Below the pieces are notes generated by a model. That model ran no database searches. It saw only the letters and a program-made list of their open reading frames with translations, and had not been told where the DNA came from. Below, piece after piece: positions 1,627 to 63,182 of a stretch of 64,000 bases of DNA. How positions within the stretch are numbered: the stretch's first letter is position 1; each line of letters opens with the position of its first letter. A program made the translations under genes and the position numbers. Source of the DNA: Platanthera guangdongensis (taxonomy: Eukaryota; Streptophyta; Magnoliopsida; Asparagales; Orchidaceae); contig CM077166.1 in the NCBI GenBank assembly GCA_039583875.1, positions 86,674,564-86,738,563 of the forward strand. The letters run 5' to 3'.

Positions 1627-1631
1627 AATTT
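1627..1631. repeat. Target-site duplication of A, left copy (AATTT)
   Basis: AATTT directly precedes the LTR terminus TGAAAGAT, and the same five bases follow the other LTR at 14836-14840. Confidence 0.93.
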
Positions 1632-2535
1632 TGAAAGATATGGTACCTAAACACCTAGAGGGGGGGGGTGAATAGGTGACCTAATCCTTTTCTAACTTTA
1701 CTGGCAGCAAACAGTTTATTATCACAGATTTTTAACTTTTGCACAACAATCACAAAGTATTCACAGCATACACAGCACAATCACAGCACAACACAGTGGT
1801 TTATAGTGGTTCCCCAAGATATGGGTACATCCACTTTCCCCCTTCGCCTATCTAGCAGTGTACTAGATTCGGCCAAACTCCTCCACTGTCTCAGAACCCA
1901 AATTGGTTCCTACACCTCAGGCCCAAAGCCTTACAACTCAGCTTTATCCCAAAGCCTACACTCAGCCAATCAAGTCCTACACTCAGCCAACCAAGGCCTA
2001 CACTCAGCCAACAAGGCCTACACTCAGAGATCTCTATCTCCTACACTCAGGCTAACAAGCCCTACCCTCAGCCTTTATAAATACAGGCTTACAAATCACT
2101 CAGATCCAAAGGATCCTACAAGTTAAAATGTATTACAAATAATAACTCTACAACTCAGAAATAAAAGAGGGGAGTTGAGAGTTTCTTGATGAGTTCTTGG
2201 AAGAACTCAGCTGGATTCACTCTGACTTAGCTTTCTTCAAAGCTTCTTGAGTAGAACTGAATAAGACTGAATCCTCCTGCAGTTGTTCCTTGACCTCTGC
2301 CACTTAAGATCCAGAATTGAATCAGAATCCTTCTTCTCAGCCTAGTTCCAGAGGCTGATTTCTTGGATGGAGCCCTCTCTCTCCAACTTCTTAGATCTGC
2401 ACTTGGACTGCAAGATCTTCTTGTGTTGATACTCTTGGTACCACTTCAATAATTTGTTTTTCAACAAACTGAACTTTTGAACAATAATCTGATCCACTTG
2501 ATCTTCAACCTTACTTTCTGTAAACTGTAGGTGCC

Positions 2536-2543
2536 TATTTATA
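2536..2543 (-). promoter_or_regulatory. TATA box of A 3' LTR
   Basis: TATAAATA on the minus strand, within CCTATAAATAGGC, about 155 bp downstream of the palindrome array. The right LTR has the same box at 13621-13628. Confidence 0.75.
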
Positions 2544-2699
2544 GGCCTTCTTCATGGTAACCGGCTGATCCGGTTCATAACTGTCTTCTGACATCTCTGA
2601 CAGGTGCTGTAGACCGGCTGGAACGGCAGCTGTCAAGTCATCCAGTCATTTCTTGAAAATCTCTAACTATCTGTAAGCGTCGAGACTTTCTGTCTTTAA

Positions 2700-3606
2700 G
2701 TGTCGACACTTATAGTCCAAGTGTCGACACATGTTGTGTAAGTGTCGACACAAGTCTACAAGGTGTCGACACATTTCCTTGTATGTCTCGACACAGATTC
2801 TTCTGCATGTGTCGACACTGAAATTGAGTGTCGACACAAGTACTTGTTCTTCTAGCTTTTGCTGAATTCTTCTAAGTGTCGACACATCTCCTTTGTGTCG
2901 ACACAACTTCTTGTGTTGTATCTGTTAAGTGTCGACACTGCTTCTTGATGTCGACACATAGTCTTCTATGTTGATTTTTGCTGAGTGTCGACACAGCTCC
3001 TTGTGTCGACACTTGATTCTTCTATTGAGACTTCAGCTGAGTGTCGACACATTCCTTTAGTGTCGACACTTGTACTTAGAATATTTTGGAAATAATTCTG
3101 TTCTTTGCTAAGTGTCGACACAGCTCCTTGTGTCGACACTTTCTTCAAGTGTTGAGTCTTCAGCTGTGTGTCGACACATTGTTCTGGGTGTCGACACATA
3201 CTTCAAATGCTGACTCTTCTGTTGAGTGTCGACACATTATGCTGGGTGTCGACACTTACTTCAAGTGCTGACTCTTCTGCTTAGTGTTGACACATTGTGT
3301 TGAGTGTCGACACATGTACTTAGTCTCTGCAGACTTTTGCTGAGTGTCGACACAGCTCCAAGTGTCGACACTTTCTGCTGTAGACACAGCTTCACTGAGT
3401 GTCGACACAGCTCCTTGTGTCGATACTTTCTGTCTGTACTTTTCTTCACTGAGTGTCGACACAGCTCCAAGTGTCGACACTTTCTGTTTGGTGTCAACTC
3501 TGCATCCCAGGTGTCGACACAATGACTCCAAGTGTTGAAACTGCTTGTCTGGGTGTCGACACAAGCTTTCTTGAGTGTCGACACTTTCCCTCTGGGTGTC
3601 GACACA
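2700..3606. repeat. Tandem array of the palindrome GTGTCGACAC (about 30 copies)
   Basis: The perfect 10-bp palindrome GTGTCGACAC occurs about 30 times, with several one-base variants such as GTCTCGACAC and GTGTTGACAC. Spacers are mostly AT-rich and not identical. The first four copies start at 2700, 2721, 2742 and 2763, exactly 21 bp apart, and a variant follows at 2785. Further on, copies tend to pair at 18-19 bp, for example 2985 and 3003. The array lies in U3, upstream of the TATA box on the minus strand. Confidence 0.95.
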
Positions 3607-3750
3607 TGGACTTAGAAACCTTTTGCTTCAGTCCAGTGATTACTTAACCTGCACAAGTAAACTCAACATACATCAAATACATTATGATGTATATCATTGA
3701 GTTAGGTGAGGCTTCTTCAAATCAGGTACATTTGAGCAATGTACCCAACA

Positions 3751-4050: not shown

Positions 4051-5316
4051 CTATTTCTGGTCTGGTTCTTTGATAACTATGCCTTTGCCAGGTTGGACTT
4101 GAGCTTTGACAGTGGCTTCAGCAGTTTCAGCAACAGCAGGCTTCTTGCCTTTTAGATCTTTCTGTTTGAGTGCTTCTGCCTTGATCTTCTGCCTCTCAAA
4201 GTAGTGATATGGCTTAGGGAAGTACTTGCTAGGCTCCACTACAATAGGAGGTAGCTCTCCCATCTTAGCCTTCCTTCTGAATTGAACAATGGCCTCTTGT
4301 CTTATTTCATGTTTTCTCCATTCAGCTTCAGAGAACCATTTGTTCCTGTCATGTGTATTGTCCTTGGCAGCTTTCCAGGCAGTTAAAATTATATTCCTAG
4401 AGGTAGGGCTCCACTGTTCAAAATCTGGCTTTTGTTCTGCTTGTTCCCTAAACCTCTTCTTTGACAACCTTGTCTCTTCTTCTTTCTGTAATGCCTCTTG
4501 CATGGCTTCAGATATAGGTTGAACAACCTTTTCAATATGAACATGGTCCTTGCCCTCAAGTGGGCTATACATTGTGCTCACATCTGCTTGAATCATTTCA
4601 AAGTCTGGAGGTGGATAAATGACCTGAGCTACTTCTGGTTGCTCACCTCCAAAATAAGCAGGGTTAATGCCTGATTCAGCAACATCTTGGTCATCACACA
4701 GAGGAGGGTATCCAAGTGTAGCCCTGATTGAATTTGATATCCATTTGGCATGCTCAAAACTTGCCTTGACTAACACTCTCTCCCCCTTTATGACTTCTCT
4801 AGCCATGTGATCTCTAACATCATCCTTTTGAAATCTGATCTGACTGTCCAAGTACCTGATCTCATCTTTAAAGTAAGGTTTTAGCTTTTGAAGTTGTTCA
4901 GATATGACCTTCTGGGAGGCTTGGATAGCAGTCTTTACAGCAGTAATTTCCTCTTGAAAGACTTTATCAAATTGAGCTTTAGCAGCATCAGTAGATGTAG
5001 AGGGTTCAGCTGCCTTATTCTTTAATTCAGTGACAATAGCATTGTGGGATTCAGTCAAATTGTCATTCATTCGTAATTGATTTTCAAGAACATATCCTTG
5101 TTTTAATGCTATATCATCCACCTGTGCCTTGATTTTCTCTTGGTGTGTTGCCAAATACACCACTGCATGTCCACCCTTGTGGAAGCAGTCTGTCATCTCC
5201 TTCTTGTTGAGATTCATCTCAAATCTTATAGATTTTATATCTTGGGCAAGATCAAACTGTAATGATCTGTGCCCTGCATCAACATAAGCCTCTATGGCTT
5301 TCCTTTGTTCATCCAT
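4051..5316 (-). CDS. Post-pol ORF, C-terminal coiled-coil part (element A)
   Basis: A frame of 421 residues starting MDEQRKAIEAY. It is hydrophilic, with long Gln/Lys/Glu-rich helical stretches (about residues 20-175) that look coiled-coil. A Trp-containing conserved block follows (about residues 300-345, including EQWSPTSRNIILTAWKAAKD) and then a Lys-rich tail. There is no hydrophobic segment long enough to span a membrane and no signal peptide. It lies in the same frame as the ORF ending at 5410. The only break between them is a TAG at 5410-5412, where B reads a Tyr codon, so the ATG at 5316 is probably an internal Met of a longer protein. The function is unknown. Its position, between pol and the 3' LTR, is where some Sireviruses carry an envelope-like gene, but nothing here looks like an envelope protein. 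Confidence 0.8.
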   Translation of the reverse strand: MDEQRKAIEAYVDAGHRSLQFDLAQDIKSIRFEMNLNKKEMTDCFHKGGHAVVYLATHQEKIKAQVDDIALKQGYVLENQLRMNDNLTESHNAIVTELKNKAAEPSTSTDAAKAQFDKVFQEEITAVKTAIQASQKVISEQLQKLKPYFKDEIRYLDSQIRFQKDDVRDHMAREVIKGERVLVKASFEHAKWISNSIRATLGYPPLCDDQDVAESGINPAYFGGEQPEVAQVIYPPPDFEMIQADVSTMYSPLEGKDHVHIEKVVQPISEAMQEALQKEEETRLSKKRFREQAEQKPDFEQWSPTSRNIILTAWKAAKDNTHDRNKWFSEAEWRKHEIRQEAIVQFRRKAKMGELPPIVVEPSKYFPKPYHYFERQKIKAEALKQKDLKGKKPAVAETAEATVKAQVQPGKGIVIKEPDQK

Positions 5317-5409
5317 TTTAATCTGCAGTGCAATCAGTAAAGCACTATAGTCAACAGTTGGAGCTTGTTGAACTATAGGCTGTGGGGCTACAGTTTGCAG
5401 AGCCTTCTT

Positions 5410-6873
5410 CTAACTCTGGCTCCTTCTCTTGAATACATAGAGTTTCTTTTTCCTTGCCCTTGCAGTCTCCTCATCTTCAGAGGCAGAAGTGCTAGCAATA
5501 TCAACCCTCTCCTTAGGGCTTGGAGGCTTGTCAGCTTGCACATCTTGTGCCTTCTCAGTTTCTTGCCTTATAGGCTCCTCCAGAACTTGCATTTGCTCCC
5601 CTTCAGCAGCAGCAGTCTCTCCTTCAGCAGCTTCTTTGTCCATGTCAAAATCAACTTGATCTAGATTGAGAAATAGATCTTCCATGGTGAACTCTTGAGG
5701 TGATTGAGCTGGAGACATTCTTTGTTCTTCAACTACTGAAGCAGTAAATGTGTCTTTGATAACAACATCTGGTTCTTGACTAGGCAGCTGAGTTTGCTGA
5801 GGAACATCAGACAAATCAGCATCTTCTATAAGATATTCTAAAGTTTTTAGGTCAATGAGTACCTCTTGGATGATGATGGTGGCTTGCTCACTGTCCAGTG
5901 TAGATGGTTCTTCTACAACTGGAGGCTCCCCCTGGCTTTGATCCCTGTGGATGGGGCTAGCTGGAGGTAGCTCCCCCTGAATCTCAACAGTCTCTTGAGC
6001 AGCAGGGGTCTTCTCTGCAGCCACTTCCTCTTGGTCATCAGGAGTGAAAACAACATGTTCTTCACTCCCTAAACTGCTGGAGGACTCTTGTTCAACTGGA
6101 GTAGTTTTTCTCTTTTTCTTAGGAGGAATCTCCTTCTCAGTAATTGTCTTCTCAGGGGTTGGCATGTCCTTTGACAACACCCTGTCCCATCTTGAAAAGA
6201 TTCTTAGATCCATCTTCCTCATGTGGTTTATTTTGCTACCTGCAGCTGCACTCATCACCTCTGGTATGGTACCAGCTAGGTAGAGACTAATGATCCTGCC
6301 CAGATTGGGCTTCTTCAAGCTCTCCTTAATCTTGTCAAATACTATGATTGACCAATCAGTTCTTAGATTAAAGATAATTCTTGTCATTACTCCAAACATA
6401 TTGGCAGACACTCTGTCATGCCCTCCTGGCTTACTGAGTAAGACTTTTCCCACAATCTCAGACATGAATTTTCCTTGAGTATTCATGCCTTTCCTGTTAA
6501 AGACAGAACCTATCTTCATCTTGGGATCAAGACCACACCAGGTTAAAGCTTCCCTGGTCTTTGAAGCAGTAACCTCTTCTTCATCTTGAATTTTTGGTAG
6601 CTGAAGTACCTTTCTCAGACTCTTAGGTGAAACCTTAATCTTAGTTCCATGAACTCTGCATTTGATTCTGAATCCAGATTCATCTACGGCAGCTCCATTA
6701 AGAAATTCAAGTACTTCCTTCTTCCAAATCTTTGTAGGTTCAGACAAGAGATATTCGAGTCCAAAATCGGCGACTAGGGTTACCACTGCCTGAATTTCTT
6801 GATCTGCATCGTCGAATGCGCCGCGCACAAGCTCATAACCCTCGTTAACGTTCTTCTTAAGCTTAGGAGCCAT
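5410..6873 (-). CDS. Post-pol ORF, N-terminal part (element A)
   Basis: I place the start at the ATG at 6871-6873 (MAPKLKKN), because B has the matching ATG in the same AAACCCTAATGGC context at 60088. The frame extends upstream to 6960, but only through palindrome-repeat sequence. Residues 1 to about 225 form a conserved, apparently globular region (blocks IWKKEVLEFLN, KVSPKSLRKVLQLP, TREALTWCGLD, KPGGHDR, SKINHM), about three-quarters identical to B. Residues about 240-470 are acidic, Pro/Gln/Glu-rich and low in complexity. It ends at a TAG (5410-5412) that is a Tyr codon in B, after which the frame continues into the coiled-coil part. I recall a loose resemblance to plant proteins labelled putative plant transposon protein, which is not verified. 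No catalytic motif is recognised. Confidence 0.8.
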   Translation of the reverse strand: MAPKLKKNVNEGYELVRGAFDDADQEIQAVVTLVADFGLEYLLSEPTKIWKKEVLEFLNGAAVDESGFRIKCRVHGTKIKVSPKSLRKVLQLPKIQDEEEVTASKTREALTWCGLDPKMKIGSVFNRKGMNTQGKFMSEIVGKVLLSKPGGHDRVSANMFGVMTRIIFNLRTDWSIIVFDKIKESLKKPNLGRIISLYLAGTIPEVMSAAAGSKINHMRKMDLRIFSRWDRVLSKDMPTPEKTITEKEIPPKKKRKTTPVEQESSSSLGSEEHVVFTPDDQEEVAAEKTPAAQETVEIQGELPPASPIHRDQSQGEPPVVEEPSTLDSEQATIIIQEVLIDLKTLEYLIEDADLSDVPQQTQLPSQEPDVVIKDTFTASVVEEQRMSPAQSPQEFTMEDLFLNLDQVDFDMDKEAAEGETAAAEGEQMQVLEEPIRQETEKAQDVQADKPPSPKERVDIASTSASEDEETARARKKKLYVFKRRSQS

Positions 6874-6907
6874 TAGGGTTTGTAGAATTTGTCTGTAGAA
6901 AAGTGAG

Positions 6908-7355
6908 GTGTCGACACAGTAGTTTTGGTCTCGAAACTTTGAAAGCGTGTCGACAAACAAAGACAGAACCCTATTTATACATGTCTAATTTTGAAGATGA
7001 ACAGGCGGGACAGCTAACTTAAAATGTGTCGACACTGACAACAAGTGTCGACACTGACTTATAATGTCTCGACACATATGTGTCGACACAAGTTTAGTCA
7101 ATAGATTTTATGTGTCGACACTTGGGTATGTGTCGACACAACATAACTCGACACATTGTCGAGACTTTACTTAGAAAAATTCTGAGTAAAACTTAAGTGT
7201 CGACACCATATTGGATGTGTCGACACCTACTTGACATGTGTCGACACTAACATTCTGAAGTGTCGACACCATATTCCTAGATGTGTCGACACCTTTTTCC
7301 GAAAGTGTCGACACCACTATTCTGTGTCGACATAGACTTGTCTATGTGTCGACAC
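6908..7355. repeat. Internal GTGTCGACAC array between pol and post-pol ORF (A)
   Basis: It holds about 14 exact copies plus variants. Eight successive copies start at 7197, 7217, 7238, 7260, 7283, 7305, 7324 and 7346, a mean spacing near 21 bp. Many are followed by C (GTGTCGACACC), unlike the LTR copies. Two outlying copies (about 6908 and 6947) lie downstream of the TATA box. No coding frame crosses it. Confidence 0.93.
6972..6979 (-). promoter_or_regulatory. Candidate internal promoter TATA box for the post-pol ORF (A)
   Basis: TATAAATA on the minus strand, within TGTATAAATAGGG, 99 bp upstream of the ATG at 6873. B has TATAAATAGG at 59981-59990, about 100 bp before its ATG. In both copies a GTGTCGACAC array lies upstream and two further copies of the motif lie between box and ATG. 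This is the same plan as the LTR promoter. Confidence 0.6.
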
Positions 7356-7387
7356 CTTTTTACTTAGTCATTTTCAAATCTGTAAAC

Positions 7388-7741
7388 TTACTCTAAGTTT
7401 ATCATTCCTAGTTCAATTTTGAATCTATTGAACTTAGATTCTTCTAGTGGCTTAGTAAACATATCAGCTACTTGTTCATCTGTTTTAACATATTCTAATA
7501 AAATATCTTCTCTTTCTACATGCTCTCTAAGAAAATGATATTTAATCTCAATATGTTTTGTCCTACTATGGGATACAGGGTTATTAGCTATTGAAATAAC
7601 ACTTGTAGAATCACAAAAAAGTGGAGTTCTACTTACCTGAAATCCATAGTCCTCTAGCTGATGTTGAATCCACAGAAGTTGAGCACAGCAACTTCCTGCA
7701 GCCACATACTCTGACTCTGCTATGGAGATAGCCACACTGGT
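7388..7741 (-). pseudogene. pol: copia RNase H, C-terminal part (element A pol)
   Basis: The frame continues from the RT segment after an in-frame TAA at 7742-7744, where B has CAA (Gln). It holds the RNase H glutamate in AESEYVAAG, the later aspartate in LFCDSTSVISIANNP, and the copia-typical HSRTKHIEIKYHFLREHV. It ends at GMINLE, as in B. The domain would degrade the RNA strand of the RNA-DNA hybrid during reverse transcription. Confidence 0.88.
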
Positions 7742-9199
7742 TTACTTCTTGCTACTCCATGAAATTAGTCTCCCACCTAGGAATTGACAGGTTCCAGTAG
7801 TGCTCTTTCTATCCTCTTTGCATCCTGCAAAGTCTGCATCTGAATAACCTGTTAGATCAAAATCTCCATTCCTAGGGTACCAGAGGCCTAGATAGGGAGT
7901 GCCCTTTAGATATCTCAATATTCTTTTGACTGCAGTCAAATGAGACTCTTTAGGGTAGACTTGATACCTTGCACAAACACATGTAGCATACATGATGTCT
8001 GGTCTACTAGCAGTCAAGTATAATAGGGAGCCAACTATCCCTCTATACAAGGTTTCATCTACAGGTTTCCCTGCATCATCCTTGCTAAGAGACATACTTG
8101 ACCCCATAGGAGTCTTCATGATACTGGATGAATCCATACCATACTTCCTTATGAGTTCTAGGGTGAACTTTGACTGACAAATGGACAAACCACTCTCAGT
8201 CTGTTTAACTTGGAGACCCAAGAAAAACTTCAGCTCTCCCATACTACTCATCTCAAACTGACCTTGCATAAGTTTTGCAAACTTTTTGCAAAGGCTGCTT
8301 TTAGTAAACCCAAATATAATGTCATCTACATATATTTGGACTAGTATGACTTTGCCTCTAGATTCCCTAAGGAATAGAGTCTTATCTATTTTCCCCCTTG
8401 AGAATTTGTTCTCAATGAGGAAACTAGATAGGGTTTCATACCAAGCCCTAGGGGCTTGCTTTAACCCATATAAAGCTTTCCTAAGTCTATAGACATGATG
8501 AGGTAGAGTTGGATCAACAAAACCTGAAGGCTGCTCCACATAGACTTCTTCTTTCAAATTACCATTTAGGAATGCTGACTTGACATCCATTTGGTATACT
8601 TTGAATCCTTGATAGGTTGCATAGGCCAAGAACATCCTTATGGCTTCCAGTCTGGCTACTGGAGCAAAGGTTTGATCAAAGTCAATACCTTCTTCTTGCC
8701 TATATCCTTTAGCAACCAGTCTAGCTTTATTATTAATGATGACCCCTTGTTCATCCATCTTATTCCTGTAGATCCACTTAACTCCTATTACATTGTGGTC
8801 TTTAGGTTTAGGAACAAGTTCCCAAACCTTGCACCTCTTGAACTGATTAAGCTCTTCTTGCATTGCTTCAGTCCATTGAGGATCTTGTATTGCTTCTTCA
8901 AACTTTTTAGGTTCAACTTGTGACAGAAAGCTGGAATAGATTGCAGCATTCTGATTTCTGCTCCTTGTTTGAACTCCTTGTCTTGGATCTCCAATAATCA
9001 GCTCTACTGGATGATCTCTAAGATGCCTGTGGGCTGGAGGCATCCTCACTTCTGGTTGAACCACTTCAGCATCTGCATCATGCTGTATTCCTTGGATTTC
9101 TTTAGCAATTGGCACATGTAGTTCTCCCCCTGCACAGCAGCTACTCTCCTCTCCTTGCTGTCTTGCAGCAGGCACTTCTTCTATAGTAAGCTTGTCCAT
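7742..9199 (-). pseudogene. pol: copia reverse transcriptase and start of RNase H (element A pol)
   Basis: A 485-codon open stretch with the full copia [60 protein letters not shown], the catalytic YVDDIIFG, and [19 protein letters not shown]. The RNase H aspartate follows in [19 protein letters not shown]. It opens just after a TAA (9200-9202) that separates it, in the same frame, from the integrase stretch; B reads Lys there. The stop at 7742 cuts RNase H. The RT fold itself looks undamaged, but the polyprotein cannot be made without reading through stops. Confidence 0.93.
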
Positions 9200-10562
9200 T
9201 TACTTTGTCAAACCTGTGGGGCTGCATACACTGCTAGACAACTCATTATTAATAAGTTTAGTCTCATCAAAAACTACATGCACTGATTCTTCTACAACTT
9301 GTGTAGTCAAGTTGTAGACTCTATAAGCCTTACTATTATTGCTGTACCCAACAAAAATTCCCTCTTGGGACTTGGCAGCAAAATTAGTTAAGTAAGACTT
9401 CCCATTGTTAAGTATGAAGCATTTGCAACCAAAGATCCTGAAGTAGGATAGGTTTGGTTTCCTGCCTTTCACAACTTCATAGGGGGTCTTGTTTAGCCCT
9501 TTAGTGATGGTAGCCCTATTTATAACATGGCATGCAGTGTTAACTGCTTCAGCCCAGAAATACTCTGGCAGTGATGTATCACTCAATAGGGTTCTACCAG
9601 CCTCTATCAAGGTTCTATTCTTCCTCTCAGCAATGCCATTTTGCTGAGGTGTTCTAGGTGAAGAGAATTCTTGAAATATCCCAAAGTCTTCACACAGTTT
9701 TGTCATGCTATCAGACTGAAATTCAGTACCATGGTCACTTCTAATTTTGACCAATGTACTATTTAGTTCATTCTGAATTTGCTTGACAAAGCTATAGAAA
9801 ACACTAGGTGTTTCAGATTTCTGTCTTAGGAAGAACACCCAGGAAAACCTTGAGTAGTCATCTACAACTACAAAGGTATAGACCTTCCTACCTAAGCTGT
9901 GAACTGGCATTGGACCAAAAAGATCCATATGCAAGAGGTATAAACACCTAACAGCATCTTTATTTTTTATGCTTTTAAAGGTGGATTTAGTCTGCTTGCC
10001 CTTTTGACAAGCTGTGCAGATACCATCTTTGACACACTTAACTTGAGGACCATTCCTCACTAACTCTTTGCTAAAGAGTTTGCTAATAGTCTTGTAGTTA
10101 AGATGGGCAAGCCTCTTGTGCCATTTGACACAATGAGAGACTGTCTCATCAGCTACACGACAAACTGGAGAACCATTGTTCTCAACCATAATGTCTAGGC
10201 AGTAGACATTCCTCTTCCTATAACCTGTCAAAATGATCTCTTGATCACTTGACCTCTTGATATGACAACCATTTTTAACAAATGAGATGTCATATCCTAC
10301 ATAACTTAATTGACTTATACTTATTAGGTTGTGTTTCAACCCTTTAACATAAGCCACTTGAGTAATGGTAACTAAGTTTGTAGAAATGTTACCAAATCCT
10401 TTGATGATTCCTTTTTTCAGAACCACCAAAGGTTACTTTTGGATCATCTTTTACTGGAATGTAGTCCTTTAGTAATCTTCTTGTTCCAGTCATATGTCTG
10501 GAACATCCACTGTCCAAGTACCATGTTGGGTTATGGCCACTTGGACTCACTTGCAAAACAGA
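9200..10562 (-). pseudogene. pol: copia protease and integrase (element A pol)
   Basis: The protease motif LDSGCSRHMTG lies near 10480-10520 in the gag frame. A one-base insertion in an A-run near 10412 (six A here) shifts the frame, and integrase then reads in the next frame from about 10429. Integrase has the zinc-binding HKRLAHLNYKT...CTACQKGKQ, the DDE core (HMDLFGP, IRSDHGTEF, and E in NGIAERKNR) and the copia GYSNNSKAYRVYN block. It ends at the TAA 9200-9202. Integrase would insert the cDNA and the protease would mature Gag-Pol. Confidence 0.9.
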
Positions 10563-12605
10563 TTAATGAACCTTAGAACCCAAAGAATTCTTGGGTCCTT
10601 GGTATTTGTTAGTCTGCAATCTGACAAAGCTCCCTGCAGGCTTTCCAACAGGTAGCTTGCTACTTACCTTGGCACTGGCATTGTGTCAACAGTCCACTGC
10701 AAAGTGGCCAATTTTGCCACAGCACCAACATTCAAACTTGTTGTACCTTTGCTTAGATACAGCCTTTGCTGTATTATCTACAGCAGTCTTGTTGAATGCT
10801 GGGGCTTTGCCCTTGGACTTAGACTTGGACTGCTCAGTCCTTGCAGGTCTAATAAAGCCCAGTCCAGCCGAGCCTTTTTGATAAACAAATTCATCAATTA
10901 AAGGTAACACTGACTTAGGTTTAGAAAACCTAGCAACTAAGTCCTTCTCCTTCTGAAGATTGATCTCCAGACTCTTAATTTCATCATTCTTAAATGATAT
11001 AGTACCCATCTGAATCACTGTTATGTGTTTCAGCCTAGCTATCTCATTCAACTTTTGATCAAACTGCTTCTCAAAATCTGTTGCACCAGCTTTAAGTTCA
11101 GCAATTTCCTTTGCCTGACTTTTGGCTAGGGATTTGCTTTTCTTGTAAGCTTGCAACAACACCTTATATTCATCTATAAGTTGATGAATATCATCCTCAG
11201 ACTCAGATACACTTTCATCACTTGATGAAGATGAATCTGATTCTGAACTAGAACAAGAAACTGAATTTAAACTTGAACCTTGTACCTGACTGGGTCCTGG
11301 CTGCTCCAGGATTTTGGCACTGTCTGTCAAAGCCATTAGTCCTTGGCATTGACTGTCTTCTTGTTCATAAATAGACTCCATAATCTGTATAAATTCTTTC
11401 TCTTCTTCTCCAGCAAACAACCCTATGTAGGCTTCAGCCTCAGACTCAGTTTCTGAAGAAGAGATATCTGATAGAGTCTTCTCCTTCTTGGCAACAAAAG
11501 ACTTCTCTTTCTTTCCTTTGAAGTGAGTCTTTTTCCTGTCACCAGATTCCTTTCTCTTCTCTGGACAATCTGCAATAACATGGCCCTATCTATTGCAGCA
11601 GTAGCACACTATCTTAGATCCAGTTGCCTTGCTTGACTTTGTCCTCTTCCTGTCTTTCTTTGAAGGCTTTTTTTCCTGATAAAAGACTTCCTTTCCCTTT
11701 GAAGAAGAGGGTCTTGACCTCCATTGTTTCTTCTTCAAGAATTTCTGAAAGTGTCTAGTGAAGGCAGCAAAGTCTTCATCACTTTCACTGCTCTCACTCT
11801 TTGTGCTGACTGACTCATCAGACTCTGAATCAACTACCTCTGGAGGTGGAGTTGATGACTTATTCCTGCACTTTTTGGGAACTTCTGTCTTGAAAGCAAC
11901 TGATCTTTCCTTGTATTCAATCCTTGTTGATTTCTCCTCCTCTTTCCTCACTGTCAACTGCATCTCATATGACAATAACTTGCCAAACAGTGTAGGAGGA
12001 GGAATTTCCCCCAACTTAGCCATTTCTCTTATGGCACAGATCTTTGTGTCCCAATCTTTGGTTAGGGACCTTAAGAACTTATCATTTAGTTCATAGTTAC
12101 TGAACTCTCTTCCATAAGACATGAGTTCATTAACTATTCTGTAGAACTTCTTGTAGCACTCAGTTATGCAATCACCTTTACCTTGTCTAAAGCTCTTATA
12201 CTCCTGATTTAGCAAGGATTTTCTATCTTGCCTAACTTCTTCAGATCCTTCCATATACACTATAAGAGTGTCCCACATCTCTTTAGCTGTCTTACAGTGT
12301 ATAAGATTCTGAAATGTTGCATCATCTATGGCACTTACAATAATGTTTTGTGCCCTCTTGTCCATTGTAGCTAGGACAATCTCATCCTTAGTCATCTCAG
12401 AGAAATCCTTTGGAGTTCTCTGATTTGCATCCAAAACTGAAATCTTCATTGGCACATAAGGCCCTTCCTTTACTGTGATGTAGATTCTAGGGTCAGAGGC
12501 TTCCATAAATAGCCTTACCCTTTCTTTCCATATCTCAAAGATCTCTTTCCTGCATATGGGAAATTTCATGGAACCCAATTCCTTGTGATTCTCAGAAGAA
12601 CCCAT
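10563..12605 (-). pseudogene. gag: copia gag with two CCHC zinc knuckles (element A)
   Basis: It starts at the ATG at 12603-12605 (MGSSENHKELGS), about 100 bp after the primer site. The N-terminal part (residues about 15-230) is a UBN2-type capsid region (KEMWDTLIVYMEGSEEVRQDR, FLRSLTKDWDTK). A Ser/Glu-rich stretch follows, then a first knuckle CYCCNR-stop-GHVIADC and a second knuckle CWCCGKIGHFAVDC. Two nonsense changes are visible against B. TAG at 11586-11588 replaces Gln inside the first knuckle. TGA directly after the second knuckle (about 10683) replaces Trp. The frame then runs to a TAA at 10563-10565 that is also present in B, so it may be the genuine gag end. Confidence 0.9.
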
Positions 12606-12714: not shown

Positions 12715-13620
12715 CTTGAAAGATATGGTACCTAAACACCTAGAGGGGGGGGGTGAATAGGTGACCTAATCCTTTTCTAACTTTACTGGCAGCAAACAGT
12801 TTATTATCACATATTTTTAACTTTTGCACAGCAATCACAAAGTATTCACAGCATACACAGCACAATCAATGCACAACATAGTGGTTTATAGTGGTTCCCC
12901 AAGATATGGGTACATCCACTTTCCCCCTTCGCCTATCTAGCAGTGTACTAGATTCGGCCAAACTCCTCCACTGTCTCAGAACCCAAATTGGTTCCTACAC
13001 CTCAGGCCCAAAGCCTTACAACTCAGCTTTATCCCAAAGCCTACACTCAGCCAATCAAGGCCTACACTCAGCCAACCAAGGCCTACACTCAGCCAACAAG
13101 GCCTACACTCAGAGATCTCTATCTCCTACACTCAGGCTAACAAGCCCTACCCTCAGCCTTTATAAATACAGGCTTACAAATCACTCAGATCCAAAGGATC
13201 CTACAAGTTAAAATGTATTACAAATAATAACTCTACAACTCAGAAATAAAAGAGGGGAGTTGAGAGTTTCTTGATGAGTTCTTGGAAGAACTCAGCTGGA
13301 TTCACTCTGACTTAGCTTTCTTCAAAGCTTCTTGAGTAGAACTGAATAAGACTGAATCCTCCTGCAGTTGTTCCTTGACCTCTGCCACTTAAGATCCAGA
13401 ATTGAATCTGAATCCTTCTTCTCAGCCTAGTTCCAGAGGCTGATTTCTTGGATGGAGCCCTCTCTCTCCAACTTCTTAGATCTGCACTTGGACTGCAAGA
13501 TCTTCTTGTGTTGATACTCTTGGTACCACTTCAATAATTTGTTTTTCAACAAACTGAACTTTTGAACAATAATCTGATCCACTTGATCTTCAACCTTACT
13601 TTCTGTAAACTGTAGGTGCC

Positions 13621-13628
13621 TATTTATA
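13621..13628 (-). promoter_or_regulatory. TATA box of A 5' LTR
   Basis: TATAAATA on the minus strand. This is the copy that would drive the full-length transcript into gag-pol. Confidence 0.75.
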
Positions 13629-13784
13629 GGCCTTCTTCATGGTAACCGGCTGATCTGGTTCATAACTGTCTTCTGACATCTCTGACAGGTGCTGTAGACC
13701 GGCTGGAACGGCAGCTGTCAAGTCATCTAGTCATTTATTGAAAATCTCTAACTATCTGTAAGCGTCGAGACTTTCTGTCTTTAA

Positions 13785-14691
13785 GTGTCGACACTTATAG
13801 TCCAAGTGTCGACACATGTTGTGTAAGTGTCGACACAAGTCTACAAGGTGTCGACACATTTCCTTGTATGTCTCGACACAGATTCTTCTGCATGTGTCGA
13901 CACTGAAATTGAGTGTCGACACAAGTACTTGTTCTTCTAGCTTTTGCTGAATTCTTCTAAGTGTCGACACATCTCCTTTGTGTCGACACAACTTCTTGTG
14001 TTGTATCTGTTAAGTGTCGACACTGCTTCTTGATGTCGACACATAGTCTTCTATGTTGATTTTTGCTGAGTGTCGACACAGCTCCTTGTGTCGACACTTG
14101 ATTCTTCTGTTGAGACTTCAGCTGAGTGTCGACACATTCCTTTAGTGTCGACACTTGTACTTAGAATATTTTGGAAATAAATCTGTTCTTTGCTAAGTGT
14201 CGACACAGCTCCTTGTGTCGACACTTTCTTCAAGTGTTGAGTCTTCAGCTGTGTGTCGACACATTGTTCTGGGTGTCGACACATACTTCAAATGCTGACT
14301 CTTATGTTGAGTGTCGACACATTGTGCTGGGTGTCGACACTTACTTCAAGTGCTGACTCTTCTGCTTAGTGTTGACATATTGTGTTGAGTGTCGACACAT
14401 GTACTTAGTCTCTGCAGACTTTTGCTGAGTGTCGACACAGCTCCAAGTGTCGACACTTTCTGGTGTAGACATAGCTTCACTGAGTGTCGACACAGCTCCT
14501 TATGTCGACACTTTCTGTCTGTACTTTTCTTCACTGAGTGTCGACACAGCTCCAAGTGTCGACACTTTCTGTCTGGTGTCAACTCTGCATCCCAGGTGTC
14601 GACACAATGACTCCAAGTGTCGACACTGCTTGTCTGGGTGTCGACACAAGCTTTCTTGAGTGTCGACACTTTCCCTCTGGGTGTCGACACA
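13785..14691. repeat. GTGTCGACAC array in A 5' LTR
   Basis: About 30 copies, colinear with 2700-3606. Here two sites are intact (near 14502 and 14617) that are mutated in the other LTR, and the reverse also occurs. Confidence 0.95.
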
Positions 14692-14835
14692 TGGACTTAG
14701 AAACTTTTTGCTTCAGTCCAGTGATTACTTAACCTGCACAAGTAAACTCAACATACATCAAATACATTATGATGTATATCATTGAGTTAGGTGAGGCTTC
14801 TTCAAATCAGGTACATTTGACCAATGTACCCAACA

Positions 14836-17235: not shown

Positions 17236-17916
17236 GTGGCAAGGAGTGGAGATGGGCCATCTGAGCCCCAGCGCTCTGATGAGAGTGTCGCACCGGTTGA
17301 AGCGTGTACGCCTCCTTTGGCGCAGACCATTCGGGTGGTGACGGAAACAGTGCTTGCAGTATTGCAGACACAACCTGCAAGGAGTGCAGTGATACCTGTG
17401 CCGCTTGGTGTTCGGCAAGAGCCTGTGGATGAGCAGTTAAAAAGTTTTATGGAATTTCATTCACCTATGTTTGGCGGGGCTATTTCCCCAACACAGGCGG
17501 AAGATTGGCTTGCTAGAGTAAAACGAATCATGACTGCCATCAGGACGGCAGAGGAGCAGAAAGTGACGTTAACCACTTTTCTGTTGGAAGGAGACCCAAG
17601 ATTATGGTGGGATGAGATGGAGGTGCATTACTTGGCCGGTCGAGGGTTAGCGGAGGTTTCCATGGAAGAAATCACCCGCTTGTTTTTAGCCAAGTACGTG
17701 TCAGTGTCCCAACGGATTGCAATGGAGAATGAATTTTTACGTCTAGTGCAGGGTGAGCGGGATATTGATACATACCTGCATGAATTTACCAGACTGGGGC
17801 GGTATGCAGGATCTACTTTTGCCGAGGAAGCCCGAAAGACGAATCAATTTTATGAGGGCCTTCGAGATGAGTTAAGGTTGGCACTTCCGAGTTCGGTGAG
17901 ACAAGGTGATGAGTCC
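17236..17916 (+). pseudogene. gag: gypsy gag, N-terminal part (element E), cut by element C
   Basis: A frame opens after a TAG at 17233 and runs into element C at 17917, where the LTR supplies the stop (the apparent end is 17922). No ATG occurs before residue 72 (position 17449), so the original start is unclear. The retrotransposon Gag domain is plain: FMEFHSPMFGG, PTQAEDWLARVKRI, FLLEGDPRLWWDEM, EITRLFLAKYVS, FLRLVQGERDIDTYLHEFTRL. It would form the particle shell. The rest of gag resumes at 24206. Confidence 0.88.
17912..17916. repeat. Target-site duplication of C, left copy (CAAGG)
   Basis: It precedes the LTR terminus TGATGAGTCC and matches 24206-24210. Confidence 0.92.
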
Positions 17917-18181
17917 ACTTAATATACCTATTTTCGGACTCATCTGGGCTAGTTTTCACGTGCTTGCACTTCACTTTTAGTTCTTTATCGTTCATATTTC
18001 ATCTAATCTTTATTTCCATAGGAAGTGCACATTTATGCCCGTGATTGTGTATTTTGTTATTTTTATAGTTTGTACTCCCTTTTGTGATTGTCTGGAATGT
18101 CTGCACAGATTAGTGATCTATTTTTCCTATCTGTACAGGGGTCGTGTGAGTGTTCCGGGATGGTTGTAAAACAGGAATACT

Positions 18182-18525
18182 GCGCACGATCATGGGATAT
18201 AATGCGCACGACCACTAGTCGTGCGCCCCTGATCGTGCGCACTACTCTTCGTTTCCAGAATCAGCCTGGGGTAAGTGCACGACCACTGGACATAATGCGC
18301 ACGACCACCGATCGTGCGCCACTGATCGTGTGCATTGATTCCTCTTTTCTGGAGTCCTGTTTGGGTTAATCGCACGATCATTGGACTTAGTGCGCACGAC
18401 CACTGGTCGTGCGCCACTGCTCGTACGCGTTATCCCAGTTCTTCTTCCTGATATTCCATGCCAGTGCGCACGATCACCGGACATAGTGTGCACGACCACT
18501 GGTCGTGCGCCTGTGATCGTGCGCA
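18182..18525. repeat. Nested palindrome array (C 5' LTR)
   Basis: Four units of about 60 bp. Each has a central 23-bp palindrome with arms GCGCACGACCA and TGGTCGTGCGC around one base. It is flanked by a left half-site such as GCGCACGATCATGGG and a right half-site such as CCCCTGATCGTGCGC, which pair with each other. Each unit therefore forms a stem within a stem. Arms carry scattered substitutions between units. Confidence 0.9.
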
Positions 18526-18543
18526 TTGGTCATTTCTGCTTTG

Positions 18544-18551
18544 TATAAATA
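18544..18551 (+). promoter_or_regulatory. TATA box of C 5' LTR
   Basis: TATAAATA within TTTGTATAAATAGTGCAGG, about 20 bp after the last array unit. Confidence 0.75.
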
Positions 18552-19476
18552 GTGCAGGTCTCGCCCTAATTCGGGAGAGGATTCGGAGCTTGACATTTCT
18601 CCGCCGTTTTCCGCCTTCTCCGCCGTTCCCCTCCATCTTCCACCCTAGGGAGGTGCTCCGGGCAAGCTTTCACCGCCACATCCAAGCCGGAGCTTCCTCT
18701 CGGCCTTCTCCTTTATCCGTGAGCTTCACGTAGGGTTTGACGCCATAGCCATCAAGCAAAGGAAAGCTAGCAAGCTTTGTCCGCTATCGTGAGACGAAGA
18801 AGACGGGCTATTGGAAGGTGGTGACAGCCCTTCTCTATCCCGGACGCAGTTGAGGACCGAGCTTGGACGCGGAATGACAACCCGACGATTCTAACCGTGA
18901 ATCCTCAGCAAGGCATTGGATCGGTCGATCTTTTGACTTGTTCTTGCTTTCTTGTTTAATATTGGTGTTTAACTTTATTTATAATTGATGAAGTATGCTT
19001 ATTTTGTAAACGTTTTATACAATTATGTCTATGTGATTTTATGTTTTCGTTATTTACTGGAGTTGCGCCATATTCCATCCACCACCATCCACCCTTGTCG
19101 CACTAGAAATTGCTAGTGGCGTGCGTAGCGAAGAGGTGCTTACGACCCTCATTCCACCATTCTCTTCACCTCATCCGCAAGCCTACTCGCCCATCCGCCT
19201 AGCGATTCGGTGCATAGCAGCCCGACTAGTCTTCCATCCCGCCTGGCGAAGCATCGCATAGCGGCGTTGCATAGGAGTAGTTGTTAGCCTTTTATTTTCT
19301 GTTTCCGCAAACATCAAAACCCCCCTTAGTTAGCTCCGACCTGAGGCCTTCAATCTCAAGTCCTCTCAAAATTAACTCCACCTTACTGTGTTCCTTGTGA
19401 GATCGATACTTGGGAAAACCCATTTTATATTGCTTGTGCGACCGGTTCACTACCGTGATCTATAGCATCAATTTTT

Positions 19477-52522: not shown

Positions 52523-53330
52523 GTGTCGACACCCAGAAGAAAAGTGTCGACACTTAAGAAGACTTGTGTCGACACCTAGAGAAGCAGTGTCGACACTTGG
52601 AGTAATTGTGTCGACACCAGGAATGGAGAGTCGACATCAGAGGAAAAGTGTCTACACATACAGGCAGTGTCGACACTCAGTGAAGAAATGTCTAAAGAAT
52701 CAGTGTCGACACTTAGAAGCAGTGTCGACACCCATAGGAACTTTGCCGACATCAGAAAGTGTCGACACTAGGAGGCAGTGTCAACACTCATTAAAACATC
52801 AACAAAGTTCAAGTACAAGTGTCGACACTAGGAGGCTGTGTCGACACTCAGCAAACTTTAACAGAGTTTAAGTACAAGTGTCGACATAATGAAGAATGTG
52901 TCGACACACAGCAAAAGTCTAAACACATGAAGAAAGTGTCGACACTAGGAGGCTGTGTCGACACTCAGCAAATTTCAATAAAGTCTAAGTACAAGTGTCG
53001 ACACAAAGGAGATGTGTCGACACTCAGCAAAAGTATCAACACAGAAGGCATGTGTCGACACTAAGAAAATGTGTCGACACTTAGCAAGTATCAACACAAG
53101 AAGATGTGTCGACACAAAGGAGTTGTGTCGACACTTACAAGAAATCAACTAAGTATCAAAGAAGAAGGACTTGTGTCGACACACAGGATCAGTGTCGACA
53201 TATGTTGAAGAAGCAGTGTCGAGAAGCAGATTCTACAACACAAGGAGTTGTGCCGACACCATGAAGGCTAGTGTCGACACTTAGTCTACTTGTGTCGACA
53301 CTTAGTCTATCAGTGTCGACACTTAAAGAC
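52523..53330. repeat. GTGTCGACAC array in B 5' LTR
   Basis: About 25-30 copies with one-base variants. The first five start at 52523, 52544, 52566, 52587 and 52608, spaced 21, 22, 21 and 21 bp. Confidence 0.95.
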
Positions 53331-53479: not shown

Positions 53480-53487
53480 TATATAAA
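53480..53487 (+). promoter_or_regulatory. TATA box of B 5' LTR
   Basis: TATATAAA within AGCCTATATAAAGGC, about 150 bp after the array. Confidence 0.7.
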
Positions 53488-59400: not shown

Positions 59401-59579
59401 GTAGGACTAAGCACATAGAAATAAAATACCATTTCCTAAGAGAACATGTGGAAAAAGGAGATATTTCACTAGAATATATTAATACAGATAATCAGCTAGC
59501 TGACATGTATACTAAGCCCTTAAATGAAACCAAATTCAATAAGTTTAAAATTGAATTAGGGATGATAAACTTAGAATAG
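56401..59579 (+). pseudogene. pol: copia pol: protease, integrase, RT, RNase H (element B)
   Basis: Protease YLDSGCSGYMTGTRG at about 56440. Integrase zinc part WHKRLAHINYKT and core HMDLFGP, IRSGHGTEF (the second catalytic Asp of A, in SDHG, is Gly here) and [19 protein letters not shown] at about 58640, RNase [20 protein letters not shown] and FCDSTSVIS. Damage: TGA at 56710, a one-base deletion near 57128, TAA at 57804, TGA at about 58092 and TAA at 58707. Ends at GMINLE plus TAG at 59577. Confidence 0.9.
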
Positions 59580-59606
59580 TTTACAAAAATTGGCCAAGTA
59601 AAAAGG

Positions 59607-60050
59607 TGTCGACACACAGAGTTATCTGTGTCGACACATAGAAGTGGTGTCAACATTTCAGAGAAATGGTGTCGACACATCTAGGAAGTCAGTGTCGACA
59701 CTTCAGAGAAGTAGCGTCGACACATGCAGTGTATTTGTCGACACATCCAAGGTGGTGTCGACACTTAAGCTTTACTCATAATTAGTCTAGTAAAGTCTCG
59801 ACTAAGTGTCGAGCTAAGTGGTGTCGACACATAACAAAGTGTCGCCACATATATTCTGTCGACTATACTTGTGTCGACACATAGTTGTCGAGACATTATA
59901 AGTAAGTGTCGACACTTTTCAACAGTGTCGACACAATTTAAGTATTTTGACGTGCCCTTTCATCTTCGATTCTAGAAAGGTATAAATAGGTTTTCGTCAT
60001 TGTCTGTCGACACGCTCACCAAAGTTTCGAGACCAAACTTGTGTGTCGAC
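59607..60050. repeat. Internal GTGTCGACAC array between pol and post-pol ORF (B)
   Basis: About 15 copies and variants in the place of the A internal array. Two copies (near 60006 and 60043) fall after the TATA box, as in A. Confidence 0.92.
59981..59988 (+). promoter_or_regulatory. Candidate internal promoter TATA box for the post-pol ORF (B)
   Basis: TATAAATA within AAAGGTATAAATAGGTTTT, about 100 bp before the ATG at 60088. Position and surroundings match 6972-6979 of A. Confidence 0.6.
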
Positions 60051-60087
60051 ATCTCTCTTCTCTAGATTTAAATTTCTCCAAACCCTA

Positions 60088-62922
60088 ATGGCGCCCAAGC
60101 TAGAAGAGAATGTGAAAGAAGGATATGAACTCGTGCGACACGCATTTGATGACGCGGAACCCGAGATCAAAGGCATGATAACCCTAATAGAAGAGACTGG
60201 GTTAGAATTTCTTGTATCAGAACCGATCAAGATATGGAAGAAGGAGGTACTGGAGTTTCTGAATGCAGCAACACTAGATGAATCAGGACTCAAGATTAAG
60301 TCAAGAGTTCATGGGGCCAAGGTGAAGGTCTCTCCTAAGAGTCTGAGAAAGGTACTACAACTACCAAGGACAAAGGAAGAAGAAGATGTTTCTGCTTCTA
60401 AGACTAGAGAAGCATTGACATGGTGTGGACTGGACTCAAACATGAAAATTGGATCAGTATTCAACAAAAAAGGAATGAACAGCCAAGGAAAATTCTTGTC
60501 TGAAATAGTTGGAAAGGTAATACTGTGCAAGCCTGGAGGGCATGACAGAATTTCAGCTCATATGTTTAGTCTAATGACCAGGATTATCTTCAAACTAGAA
60601 ACTGATTGGTCTGCAATTGTGTTTGAGAAGATAAAAGAGAGTATGAAGAAGCCCAATTTGGGAAGAATACTGAGTGTATACCTAGCTGGTAGTATACCAG
60701 AGGTGATGAATCAAGCAGCTGGATCTAAGATTAACCACATGAGGAGAATGGATTTGAGAATCTTCTCTAGGTGAGATAGAGTCCTAACCAAAGAACTGTC
60801 ATCTCCAGTAATGGACAAACCTCAGAAAAAGAAGAAGAAGACAGCCCCTGTGGCTCAAGAATCCTCAAGCAGCTCTGAAGAGCAAGTTGTTTTTACTCCT
60901 AATGAGGTAGAAACTCGAAATGCAGGACAATCTCCAGCTAGACAAGAAGATGCACAGAGGCAGGGGGAGCTACCCTCAGCAAGCCCAATTCACTTGGATT
61001 CAATCTAGGGGGAGCCTTTACTTGTGGAACAGCCAACTCCACTAGAGAGTGAACAAGCTACCCACACAATACTTGAGGTAATAACTGAAATTAATAAATT
61101 AGCTTTCCCTATTGAGGATGATGTTTTGTATGATTCATTACCTAATGTTAATCAGCAAACACAGACACATAGCCAACCCTAAGATGTGGTCATGGAGGAC
61201 ACATCTGTAGCTAAGAAAGAGGTATCAGCTGCTCCTGAGATCAGGGATTCACCAAGTCAACCTCAACATGAGTTTACACTGGAAGAGTTGTTCCCACATT
61301 TAATACAGACTGACTTTGAAGTGGAAAAAGCAGTTGTTGAGGGGGAGCAGGTAGATCTTCAGGGGGAACCAGTTAGGTCTCAAGAAGAGACAGCAAGACA
61401 AGAACCTGAGATGCCACAGCATGCTGAGGAGTTACCTAGGAAGGATTTTCCTCCTAGCCTAAAGGAAAGAGTTGAAATAGCCAGCACATCTGCTTCAGAT
61501 GATGAAGAGGCTGTAAGAGCCAAGAAGAGGAAATTTCAAGTCTTCAAGAGGAGGAGCCAGACATATAAAAAGGCACTGCAGACCATTGCACCACAGCCTG
61601 CCCCATCTACTAACTATAGTTCTCTAATGGTAGCATTGTAGATAAAGATGGATGAGCAAAGACAGGCTTTGCAATCTTATATGGATGAAGGGAATAAGTC
61701 TCTGCAGTTTGATCTGGCCCAAGACATCAAGTCAATCAGATTTGAAATGAATCTGAATAAGAAAGAAATGACTGACTGCTTCCATAAGGGAGGAAATGCA
61801 GTAGTCTATCTGGCTACACATCAAGAGAAAATAAAGACACAACTTGATGAGCTAGAAGTGAAGCAAGTCTATGTCCCGGAGAATCAGCTGAGAATGAATG
61901 ATAATTTAACAGCTTCTCATAATGCCATAGTCACAGAAATGAAGAATATAGCTTCTGCCCATACTGCAGCCATGACTACAGTCAAGGTAGAATTTGATAA
62001 AGCATTACAAGAAGGTATCACTATTGTTACTTCTGCACTTCAGGATTCTCAGAAGCTAATAACTGAAAAGCTCCAAAGGTTGAAACCTTTCTACAAAGAT
62101 GGAGTAAACTATCTGAATGCCCAGATAAGATTCCAGAAAGATGATCTAAGAGATCACATTGAAAGAGAAGTCATAAAGGGGGAGAGGGTATTAGTCAAGG
62201 CATGCTCTGATCATGCAAAATGGATTTAAAATTCCATCAGAGCCACCCTGGGATATCCACCCTTATGTGATGATAACAATGTTGCAGAGTCTGGGATTAA
62301 TCATGCATATCTTGGAGGGTAGCAAGCTGAAATGGCTCAAGTCATATACCATCCACCAGACTTTGATATGATACATCAAGACATACAATCAATGTATAGC
62401 CCTCCTGAGGAAATTCAAAATGTCATCATTGAGAAAGTTGTTCAGCTAGTGCCAGAGGCAATACTGAAAGAACAAGAAGCTTTGCTAAAAGAACAAGAGA
62501 CTCAATTGTCTAAGAAGAGATTCAGAGAGCAAGCTGAACTAAGGCCTGATTTTAAACAATGGAGCCCCACTTCTAGGAATATCATCTTGACTTCATGGAA
62601 GGCTGCTAAGGACAATGTCCAGGATAGAGGCAAGTGGTATTCTGAACTAGAGTGGAGGAAGCATGAGAACAGGCAAGAGGCTATTGTTTAATATAGAAGA
62701 AAAGCTAAGATGGGAAAGCTACCTCCTAATGCACAGGAGCCTAGAAAGTACTTCCCAAAGCCTTATCATTATTTTGAAAGGCAGAAGATCAAGGCTGAAG
62801 AATTGAAAAAGAAAGATCTTAAAGGGAAGAAGCCTGCTGCTACTGAAGATACTGAAGCTCCTGTCCAAGCAAAGATTCAATCTGGAAAGGGCATTGTGAT
62901 CAAAGAGCTAGAGCAGTCTTAG
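60088..62922 (+). pseudogene. Post-pol ORF (element B), one frame with seven internal stops
   Basis: Reads in a single frame of 945 codons from MAPKLEEN to the final TAG at 62920. Stops lie at 60772, 61006, 61180, 61639, 62227, 62320 and 62689, with no frameshift. The stop that ends the N-terminal part of A is Tyr here, and the one at 61639 is Gln in A. The parts are the conserved N-terminal region (about residues 1-230), an acidic Pro/Gln-rich middle, a helical coiled-coil-like part from MDEQRQAL at 61648, the QWSPTSRNIILTSWKAAKD block at about 62560, and a Lys-rich tail. No membrane segment. Substitutions against A are largely conservative, which suggests past selection on the protein. Confidence 0.82.
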
Positions 62923-63182
62923 GATAGCATTTTCTTTAGTTTACAAATTGTAATTACTTGTATTAGAACTTTCTGTAAACTTTTGAATAATAAAAATGTT
63001 GAAGTTGTTAGAACAATGTGATATATGTTCAACTATTACATTAATTGTTCTGAGATAATAGTATATACATGTTTTGTTCATGCATGTTTAAGTATTTTCC
63101 CTGTCATGTATTACTGTTTTACATCATACTGTGAATTTGCTATGTATGGTGTATATCATTGACTAAGGGTTATGACTTCTCA

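Follow-up and report, generated by a model that had tools for sequence, protein, structure and literature searches.

The stretch of Platanthera guangdongensis DNA analysed here (assembly GCA_039583875.1, contig CM077166.1, positions 86,674,564 to 86,738,563, forward strand; 64,000 nt, hereafter the window) carries two Ty1/copia retrotransposons, elements A and B, in which a non-coding spacer separates the end of RNase H from an additional open reading frame downstream of pol (post-pol ORF). Judged from sequence comparison, this spacer probably serves a Sirevirus-type retrotransposon family as an internal promoter for RNA polymerase II. It consists of a defined set of parts in a fixed geometry, and its conservation exceeds that of silent sites.

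The spacer measured 514 nt in A and 508 nt in B, with the RNase H stop codons ending at 7388 (A, minus strand) and 59579 (B, plus strand). It contained 13 exact copies of the 10-bp palindromic box GTGTCGACAC in A and 9 in B, or 16 and 14 when up to one mismatch was counted, and each module held a single TATAWAW in sense orientation and none in antisense. In A, the box array (7026..7355, minus) lies upstream of the TATA box TATAAATA (6972..6979, minus), which is followed by a box with one mismatch (6947..6956, minus) and by an exact box (6908..6917, minus). The former covers the predicted transcription start, a CA at 6949-6948; the latter lies in the predicted 75-nt leader of the internal transcript (6874..6948, minus), whose start base was placed by this CA. 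The post-pol ATG, at 6873, lies 106 nt beyond the first T of this TATA box. Element B repeats the arrangement on the plus strand, with the array at 59606..59934, TATAAATA at 59981..59988, boxes with one mismatch each at 60004..60013 (covering the predicted start, CA at 60011-60012) and 60043..60052, and the ATG at 60088, 107 nt from the first T. Counted from that T, the CA occupies +31/32 within the first downstream box of both elements, and neither leader contains an ATG. An earlier note on this DNA had described the order array, TATAAATA, two boxes and an ATG about 100 bp further on in A, and its repetition in B with TATAAATA at 59981 and the ATG at 60088; both descriptions were borne out. 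The two additional palindrome copies that it placed after the TATA box are present in A and B, and three of the four carry one mismatch.

The arrangement was examined in further copies of the family. Sixty copies, A and B included, were chosen by the match of their ORF protein (for A and for B, the 30 best of 150 scored matches each) without use of the promoter; three more were added by place from an array listing and were therefore ascertained on the boxes, but not on the TATA box. Together with 20 copies of a distant clade found with the protein P0003 (the first ten of 182 matches and ten of matches 22 to 33 with a query start of 1), 83 copies were sampled. A TATAWAW was located 104-110 nt before the ORF start in all 83, in 82 of them as exact TATAAATA, and CA was found at +31/32 in 79. 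RNA polymerase II promoters with a TATA box start transcription at a pyrimidine-purine dinucleotide about 31 nt downstream of it. In the 63-copy set, TATAAATA stood 104-109 nt upstream in every copy and CA in 60, accompanied by 5-15 exact boxes per 600 nt. The distant clade had TATAWAW at 107-110 nt in 20 of 20 copies, TATAAATA in 19, CA in 19 and 2-11 exact boxes. The leader, taken from +32, was free of ATG in 74 of the 83 copies (55 of 63 in the first set and 19 of 20 in the distant clade). Absence or random degradation of box and array in other members, named by the earlier note as one outcome contrary to its promoter claim, did not occur; TATAWAW was retained throughout and boxes were present in the sampled copies.

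Column identity was computed over 25 copies (A, B, the three chosen by place and the twenty distant ones). The TATA block reached a mean of 0.996, the highest of ten segments, and the first downstream box 0.964, compared with 0.783 for the intervening 14 nt. A search of the whole genome for TATAAATAGG-N(4-34)-TGTCGACA returned 22,080 matches (11,161 and 10,919 per strand) versus 3 and 0 for the reversed pattern. The gap was exactly 14 nt in 21,705 of them (10,973 and 10,732; reversed pattern 0 and 0), while the 14 letters varied among the places listed. Within the 83 fetched copies the exact 14-nt form occurred in 68; two copies had gaps of 12 and 16 (L040 and L069, respectively), and 13 lacked one of the exact words. 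A constant gap filled with free letters is what a geometry around a start site would lead one to expect, although the copies share descent. Three remoter copies lacked GTGTCGACAC. One of these, L100, has TATAAATA 121 nt before the ATG, and another, L101, has TATATATAAAT 104-108 nt before the start position, where it reads ACG. As two of the three remote copies keep a TATA box in this way, the GTGTCGACAC type of box may have arisen later than the core TATA box.

The leader provided a stronger test than the boxes. From TATA box to ATG, A and B were identical at 88 of 105 positions (3 gap columns), versus 27 of 70 four-fold degenerate sites in the following 225 codons (p=8e-10). Farther away, four-fold sites agreed at 46/64 and 44/63 in the reverse transcriptase and at 19/33 in the RNase H tail. 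The words TATAAATAGG, TGTCGACACGCT, CAAAGTTTCGAGACC, TGTGTCGACA and CAAACCCTAATGGC were unchanged between the two leaders. Compared with the distant clade, leader identity was 0.816 for A (four-fold sites 172/430) and 0.830 for B (149/429). The CAAACCCTAATGGC start in A and B resembles the leader of a plant gene, which would fit a segment captured with the 5' end of a host gene and carried along passively ever since. A segment carried in this way should have diverged as much as silent sites have, and the leader identity of 82-84% against four-fold identities of 35-40% makes such a relic very improbable. The internal arrays of A and B are homologous as well; their alignment of 330 columns contains no more than one gap. 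Their boxes were identical at 115 of 120 positions and their spacers at 157 of 209 (p=3e-7); when boxes exact in either copy were considered, 6 of 130 positions differed inside them and 67 of 245 outside. Between the two LTRs (long terminal repeats) of one insertion, box and spacer differed at 2/300 and 10/606 positions in A and at 4/220 and 15/437 in B, whose LTR is partial, which gave no significant contrast.

The distribution of CpG dinucleotides may be a further sign of a promoter zone. In A and B the CpG count stayed close to the expected level between -500 and about +150 of the post-pol ORF. The first 150 nt of the ORF (6724-6873 and 60088-60237) contained 10 and 8 CpG, with 8.1 and 7.2 expected, and in the 63-copy set about the first 150 nt of the ORF held 5-10 CpG versus 0-2 in ORF nucleotides 250-1250. 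Of the 116 CpGs of A, 81 fall within boxes. Over the first 120 nt of the ORF, 10 CpG in A and 7 in B share only 2 positions, so that the region rather than particular sites keeps its CpG. A hypomethylated promoter zone would explain the CpG kept around the ORF start. As an observation in its own right, the coding regions of both elements were almost devoid of CpG: 2 versus 199 expected in gag-pol of A (7389-12605), 6 versus 190 in gag-pol of B (54420-59579), and 2 versus 119 (A, 4054-6723) and 2 versus 112 (B, 60238-62926) in the post-pol ORF beyond +150. The sum of 12 versus 620 expected is extreme even for decay by methylation, and a literature search found no account of such a coding CpG loss for Sireviruses. 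Elsewhere in the window, from 15 to 52 kb, 33 of 37 1-kb bins had CpG ratios of 0.60-1.07, the lowest bin having 0.27.

Several results weigh against an internal promoter. A McDonald-Kreitman-style test, which set boxes against spacers inside single insertions and from one insertion to another, had the expected direction and was not significant (p=0.18 for the internal and 0.12 for the LTR arrays); box conservation taken alone is therefore only suggestive of function. The leader excess was smaller in closer comparisons, with 0.816 versus 254/439 four-fold sites for copy L013 against the distant clade and 0.903 versus 3537/4925 within the clade. The 60 best-match copies represent two subfamilies related by descent and are not independent of each other. 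L099, the third of the remoter copies (G000:C4:149501230-149501780), had neither TATAWAW nor GTGTCGACAC in the 469 nt upstream, which are GCCG-rich. Finally, no CpG was present from +0 to +600 after the LTR TATA box of A and B, so that the CpG argument is not symmetrical between the two modules.

Other routes to the expression of the post-pol ORF were weighed against the same features. The ORF could be expressed from an RNA that starts in the LTR and is spliced to an acceptor within the leader or farther upstream. Predictions of this kind exist for the env genes of Athila and BAGY2, and splicing has this precedent for other env-like genes of plants in the works cited by the passages used here of Bousios et al. 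2010 (PMC2829016). In A, B and two other copies a YAG does follow a pyrimidine-rich stretch (9-12 of 12 positions) 16-22 nt before the ATG. A YAG beyond +45 of the leader occurred in only 4 of 25 copies, whereas the TATA block, the box spacing and the CA were kept in nearly all; splicing into the leader is accordingly disfavoured and we consider it rather unlikely. Translation from the genomic RNA through stop suppression, the mode given for SIRE1 in the same source, or through internal ribosome entry would have to pass the 508-514 nt non-coding array between the reading frames and the ATGs that precede the ORF start in an LTR-started RNA (135 in A, 124 in B). It appears highly unlikely.

The boxes themselves are far from a chance accumulation. 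With up to one mismatch, 151 were counted in the window versus 1.17 expected, a number reached in none of 100 shuffles. Apart from two with one mismatch each (29062 and 29503), every box belongs to A or B and sits in an LTR or an internal module; the gag, pol and post-pol coding regions of these elements contain none. In the whole genome (4.25 Gb), two exact boxes 5-15 nt apart gave 971,003 matches and the reversed pattern gave 1; since the paired-box pattern reads identically on either strand, the count is the same for both. None of the 105 exact boxes was preceded by C or followed by G, in the internal as in the LTR modules, a rule which supports a symmetric site. The distances between boxes clustered at 18-24 and 32-42 nt, and a sharp helical phase of 10.5 nt was not found. 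Alternatively, the palindromic arrays could matter as RNA or DNA structure: hairpins formed by the genomic RNA would enter small-RNA silencing or aid packaging, and the TATA box would be incidental. The array RNA was predicted to fold at -154 kcal/mol versus -89 kcal/mol for shuffled sequences (z -12.8), which is inevitable for repeated palindromes, and the LTR palindromes of maize Sireviruses are described as small-RNA hotspots in the cited part of PMC5311732. A structural role would leave unexplained the near invariance of the TATA block and its constant 14-nt spacing. It would equally leave unexplained why the same exact 10-mer occurs in two modules without convincing homology, because any palindrome folds. 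We regard this explanation as unlikely.

Additional occurrences of the box were noted outside the family. Three places, L015, L076 and L077 (G000:C1, about 475-483 kb), belong to another repeat in which GTGTCGACAC boxes stand in tandem units of about 103 bp at two nearby places with CpG near expectation; this repeat is possibly a second user of the box. The paired-box pattern matched one viral contig, and a triple-box pattern matched two bacterial contigs, one of them (L002, JAIRZN010000186.1) filed as a bacterial metagenome-assembled genome and showing a period of 63 bp. In the literature, strings of the box were matched in the full text of 67 papers, and the 15 titles listed among these concerned unrelated subjects.

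The LTRs of A and B contain the same box in a similar order. In A, the array of the U3 region spans 13785..14690 in the 5' LTR (minus) and 2700-3605 in the 3' LTR, followed by TATAAATA at 13621..13628 and 2536..2543 (minus). In B it spans 52523..53322 (plus) ahead of TATATAAA at 53480..53487 (plus). The succession of array and TATA box that had been reported for the LTRs is thereby confirmed. The proposal that the internal module is a duplicated LTR promoter was not supported. With the boxes masked, the internal and LTR modules of one element aligned no better than shuffles (score 21 versus a shuffle mean of 22.2 in A, and 21 versus 21.8 in B), as compared with 204 for the internal modules of A and B and 475 for their LTRs. 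The likeness is limited to boxes and TATA box, apart from one of two cross comparisons, in which the internal module of B and the LTR of A scored 27, slightly above the maximum of 26 among 60 shuffles, so that the two modules may conceivably share a very old origin. That the very same 10-mer is maintained in both, although they are not convincingly homologous, speaks for recognition by a single sequence-specific factor. In a distant-clade copy (L098), the apparent 3' LTR also contains 12 exact boxes and then a TATAWAW. A different family in the window has apparent LTRs (17906-18881, 22652-23612, 46544-47519 and 51402-52377) with tandem units of about 95 bp, each including the near-palindrome GCGCACGACCA C TGGTCGTGCGC, and with TATAAATA after the units; the LTRs of A and B are thus not alone in having an array ahead of a TATA box.

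Element A lies on the minus strand between LTRs at 12716..14835 (5', minus) and 1631..3750 (3', minus), which are 98.9% identical (24 differences in 2114 aligned positions); AAATT on both flanks resembles a target-site duplication. Element B, on the plus strand, has a 5' LTR that begins at about 52380 and a 3' LTR cut by the end of the window. The domain matches of A (Retrotran_gag_2 5.9e-20, rve 3.9e-16, RVT_2 9.8e-74) agree with the copia-type gag and reverse transcriptase of Sireviruses. Both elements also possess several polypurine tracts, the last one adjoining the 3' LTR: AGGGGGAG occurs in A at 9131, 5978, 5933, 4787 and 3760, the copy at 3760 being followed by ATTGTTGGG, and B has five copies in addition to GAGGGAGATTGTTGGG at 63188. 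Both have AT-TGTTGGG at the LTR junction, which may correspond to the junction of Sireviruses. A polyC run near the LTR ends, a candidate for the polyC-rich integrase signal, and a putative primer binding site of the GGTATCA type were found in both as well, read from the elements' own sequences. The post-pol ORF of A consists of a first open piece at 5410..6873 (minus), 487 amino acids to an in-frame stop, and a second at 4051..5316 (minus) of 421 amino acids; the first open piece of B covers 60088..60774 (plus; 228 amino acids), with more in-frame stops downstream.

The product of the post-pol ORF was also characterized. No membrane helix was evident by hydropathy, the only measure used: the highest Kyte-Doolittle means over 19 residues were 1.31 and 0.33 for the two pieces of A and 0.87 and 0.56 for two pieces of B, the scan of B comprising these two pieces. 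The label 'envelope' is consequently doubtful. No solved structural relative was obtained at E values up to 1, and the only structure model, of the N-terminal domain, had a mean predicted local distance difference test score of 42.5. The second piece of A had no Pfam match at 0.01. PF20167 (Transposase_32) gave 17.6 bits for A, 24.9 for B, 20.3 for P0003 and 32 for the protein P0004, all below the cut-off of 45, in a consistent alignment. DUF1985, the VANC domain, did not appear among the families reported for five proteins at E values of up to 10, a list from which the HMMER filters drop most matches above about 0.1. No protein-level relatives were found in viral contigs. The first piece of A carries KKKRK at residues 252-256, a net charge of -39 over residues 261-440 and a further basic cluster near its end; stretches of these kinds may act as a nuclear signal or an activation domain. 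Basic clusters were found in the proteins P0002 and P0003 and, by the same rule, not in P0001. When residues 252-312 of P0001 were used as query, only P0001 itself and P0003 matched. The gene model of P0001 joins RVT_2, the promoter leader and the post-pol ORF into one protein, and that of P0002, from Platanthera guangdongensis, joins the ORF to a protein kinase; both fusions are likely annotation artefacts. P0001, from Platanthera zijinensis, reads through the leader (GINR...SVDT) and was dropped as outside evidence, being from a sister species only.

A bold reading of rather low probability is that the post-pol product is, instead of an envelope, a nuclear regulator encoded by the element, a transactivator or anti-silencing factor that would bind the GTGTCGACAC boxes, feed back on the internal promoter and switch on the LTR, as a plant counterpart of the foamy-virus Tas or the VANC circuit. 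Hints in this direction are the box common to two modules without convincing homology, the symmetric flank rule, the lack of a membrane helix by hydropathy, KKKRK next to a strongly acidic middle part in A, and the number of exact module matches in the genome, which exceeds 20,000. The hint from the basic cluster is weakened, as the cluster is not kept in P0001. In the cited passages on foamy viruses (PMC517496; PMC7828637), a second promoter in the 3' part likewise shares regulatory sites with the LTR; these are vertebrate retroviruses, to which we claim no sequence relation, and for them a transactivator, Tas/Bel1, and its binding are reported, whereas the present elements offer only the common boxes. 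The VANDAL elements of Arabidopsis with their VANC anti-silencing system, in the cited parts of PMC5735166 and PMC10398659, similarly combine an extra gene with non-coding regions in which a short motif, specific to the family, is densely repeated. They are DNA transposons, however, VANC contains DUF1985, the VANC21 motif YAGTATTAY is not palindromic, and binding has been shown there, while here it is a conjecture.

Among the closest known systems are the Sireviruses with repeated-motif (RM) boxes. In the passages of Bousios et al. 2010 (PMC2829016) considered here, symmetric boxes are described in Sirevirus LTRs and upstream of ENV, and an internal promoter is argued for, with none conclusively identified; the hypothesis is credited to Peterson-Burch and Voytas 2002. 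The RM boxes are characterized there as the CpG islands of the element, with a CGG-CCG core in 12 of 13 elements, Tnd-1 being the exception. Elements A and B share with them boxes that form CpG islands, and a palindromic box in high copy number (at least 8 copies) that precedes a TATA box in the LTR and recurs ahead of the post-pol gene. Their box GTGTCGACAC differs in its TCGA core and has no CGG-CCG, and a strictly placed internal TATA box, a start dinucleotide and a box lying over the predicted start have been identified here. The env-like gene of SIRE1, also treated in that source, is likewise the post-pol ORF of a Sirevirus but differs from the present elements, in which a promoter-like spacer of about 510 nt precedes it. 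MASiVEdb (PMC3414828, 2012), in the part cited here, counts the internal promoter among the elucidated routes of expression and calls the function of the post-pol gene unproven. A literature search, which did not extend to subscription papers, found no paper identifying the core promoter of a Sirevirus internal promoter. The idea of an internal promoter is hence already in print, and the contribution of this analysis is the core promoter element, a prediction of the start site and support on the scale of the genome. Of the earlier note's interpretation, the promoter itself gains strong comparative support: its position, TATA block, box spacing and start dinucleotide persist between clades whose silent sites are nearly saturated. 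Its derivation from the LTR promoter by duplication was not supported.

We infer from these sequence features a start site, its transcription, the binding of a factor and co-regulation with the LTR. The host transcription machinery would gather at TATAAATAGG and begin the RNA about 31 nt farther on, with the CA in the box that follows TATAAATAGG after 14 nt as its starting point. The product would be a short mRNA with a leader of about 75 nt, usually without upstream ATG, that carries the post-pol ORF and ends in the 3' LTR. One dimeric sequence-specific factor may bind the symmetric 10-bp boxes of the upstream array, which are identical to those of the U3 array of the LTR, by which genomic RNA and post-pol mRNA would be switched together.

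The conserved core promoter turns the hypothesis of 2010 into one that can be tested exactly and cheaply, as a start base is predicted for each copy. If the prediction is true, elements of the A/B type would be two-promoter retroelements in plants. The box common to both modules raises the direct question whether a single factor, of the host or self-encoded, controls both promoters.
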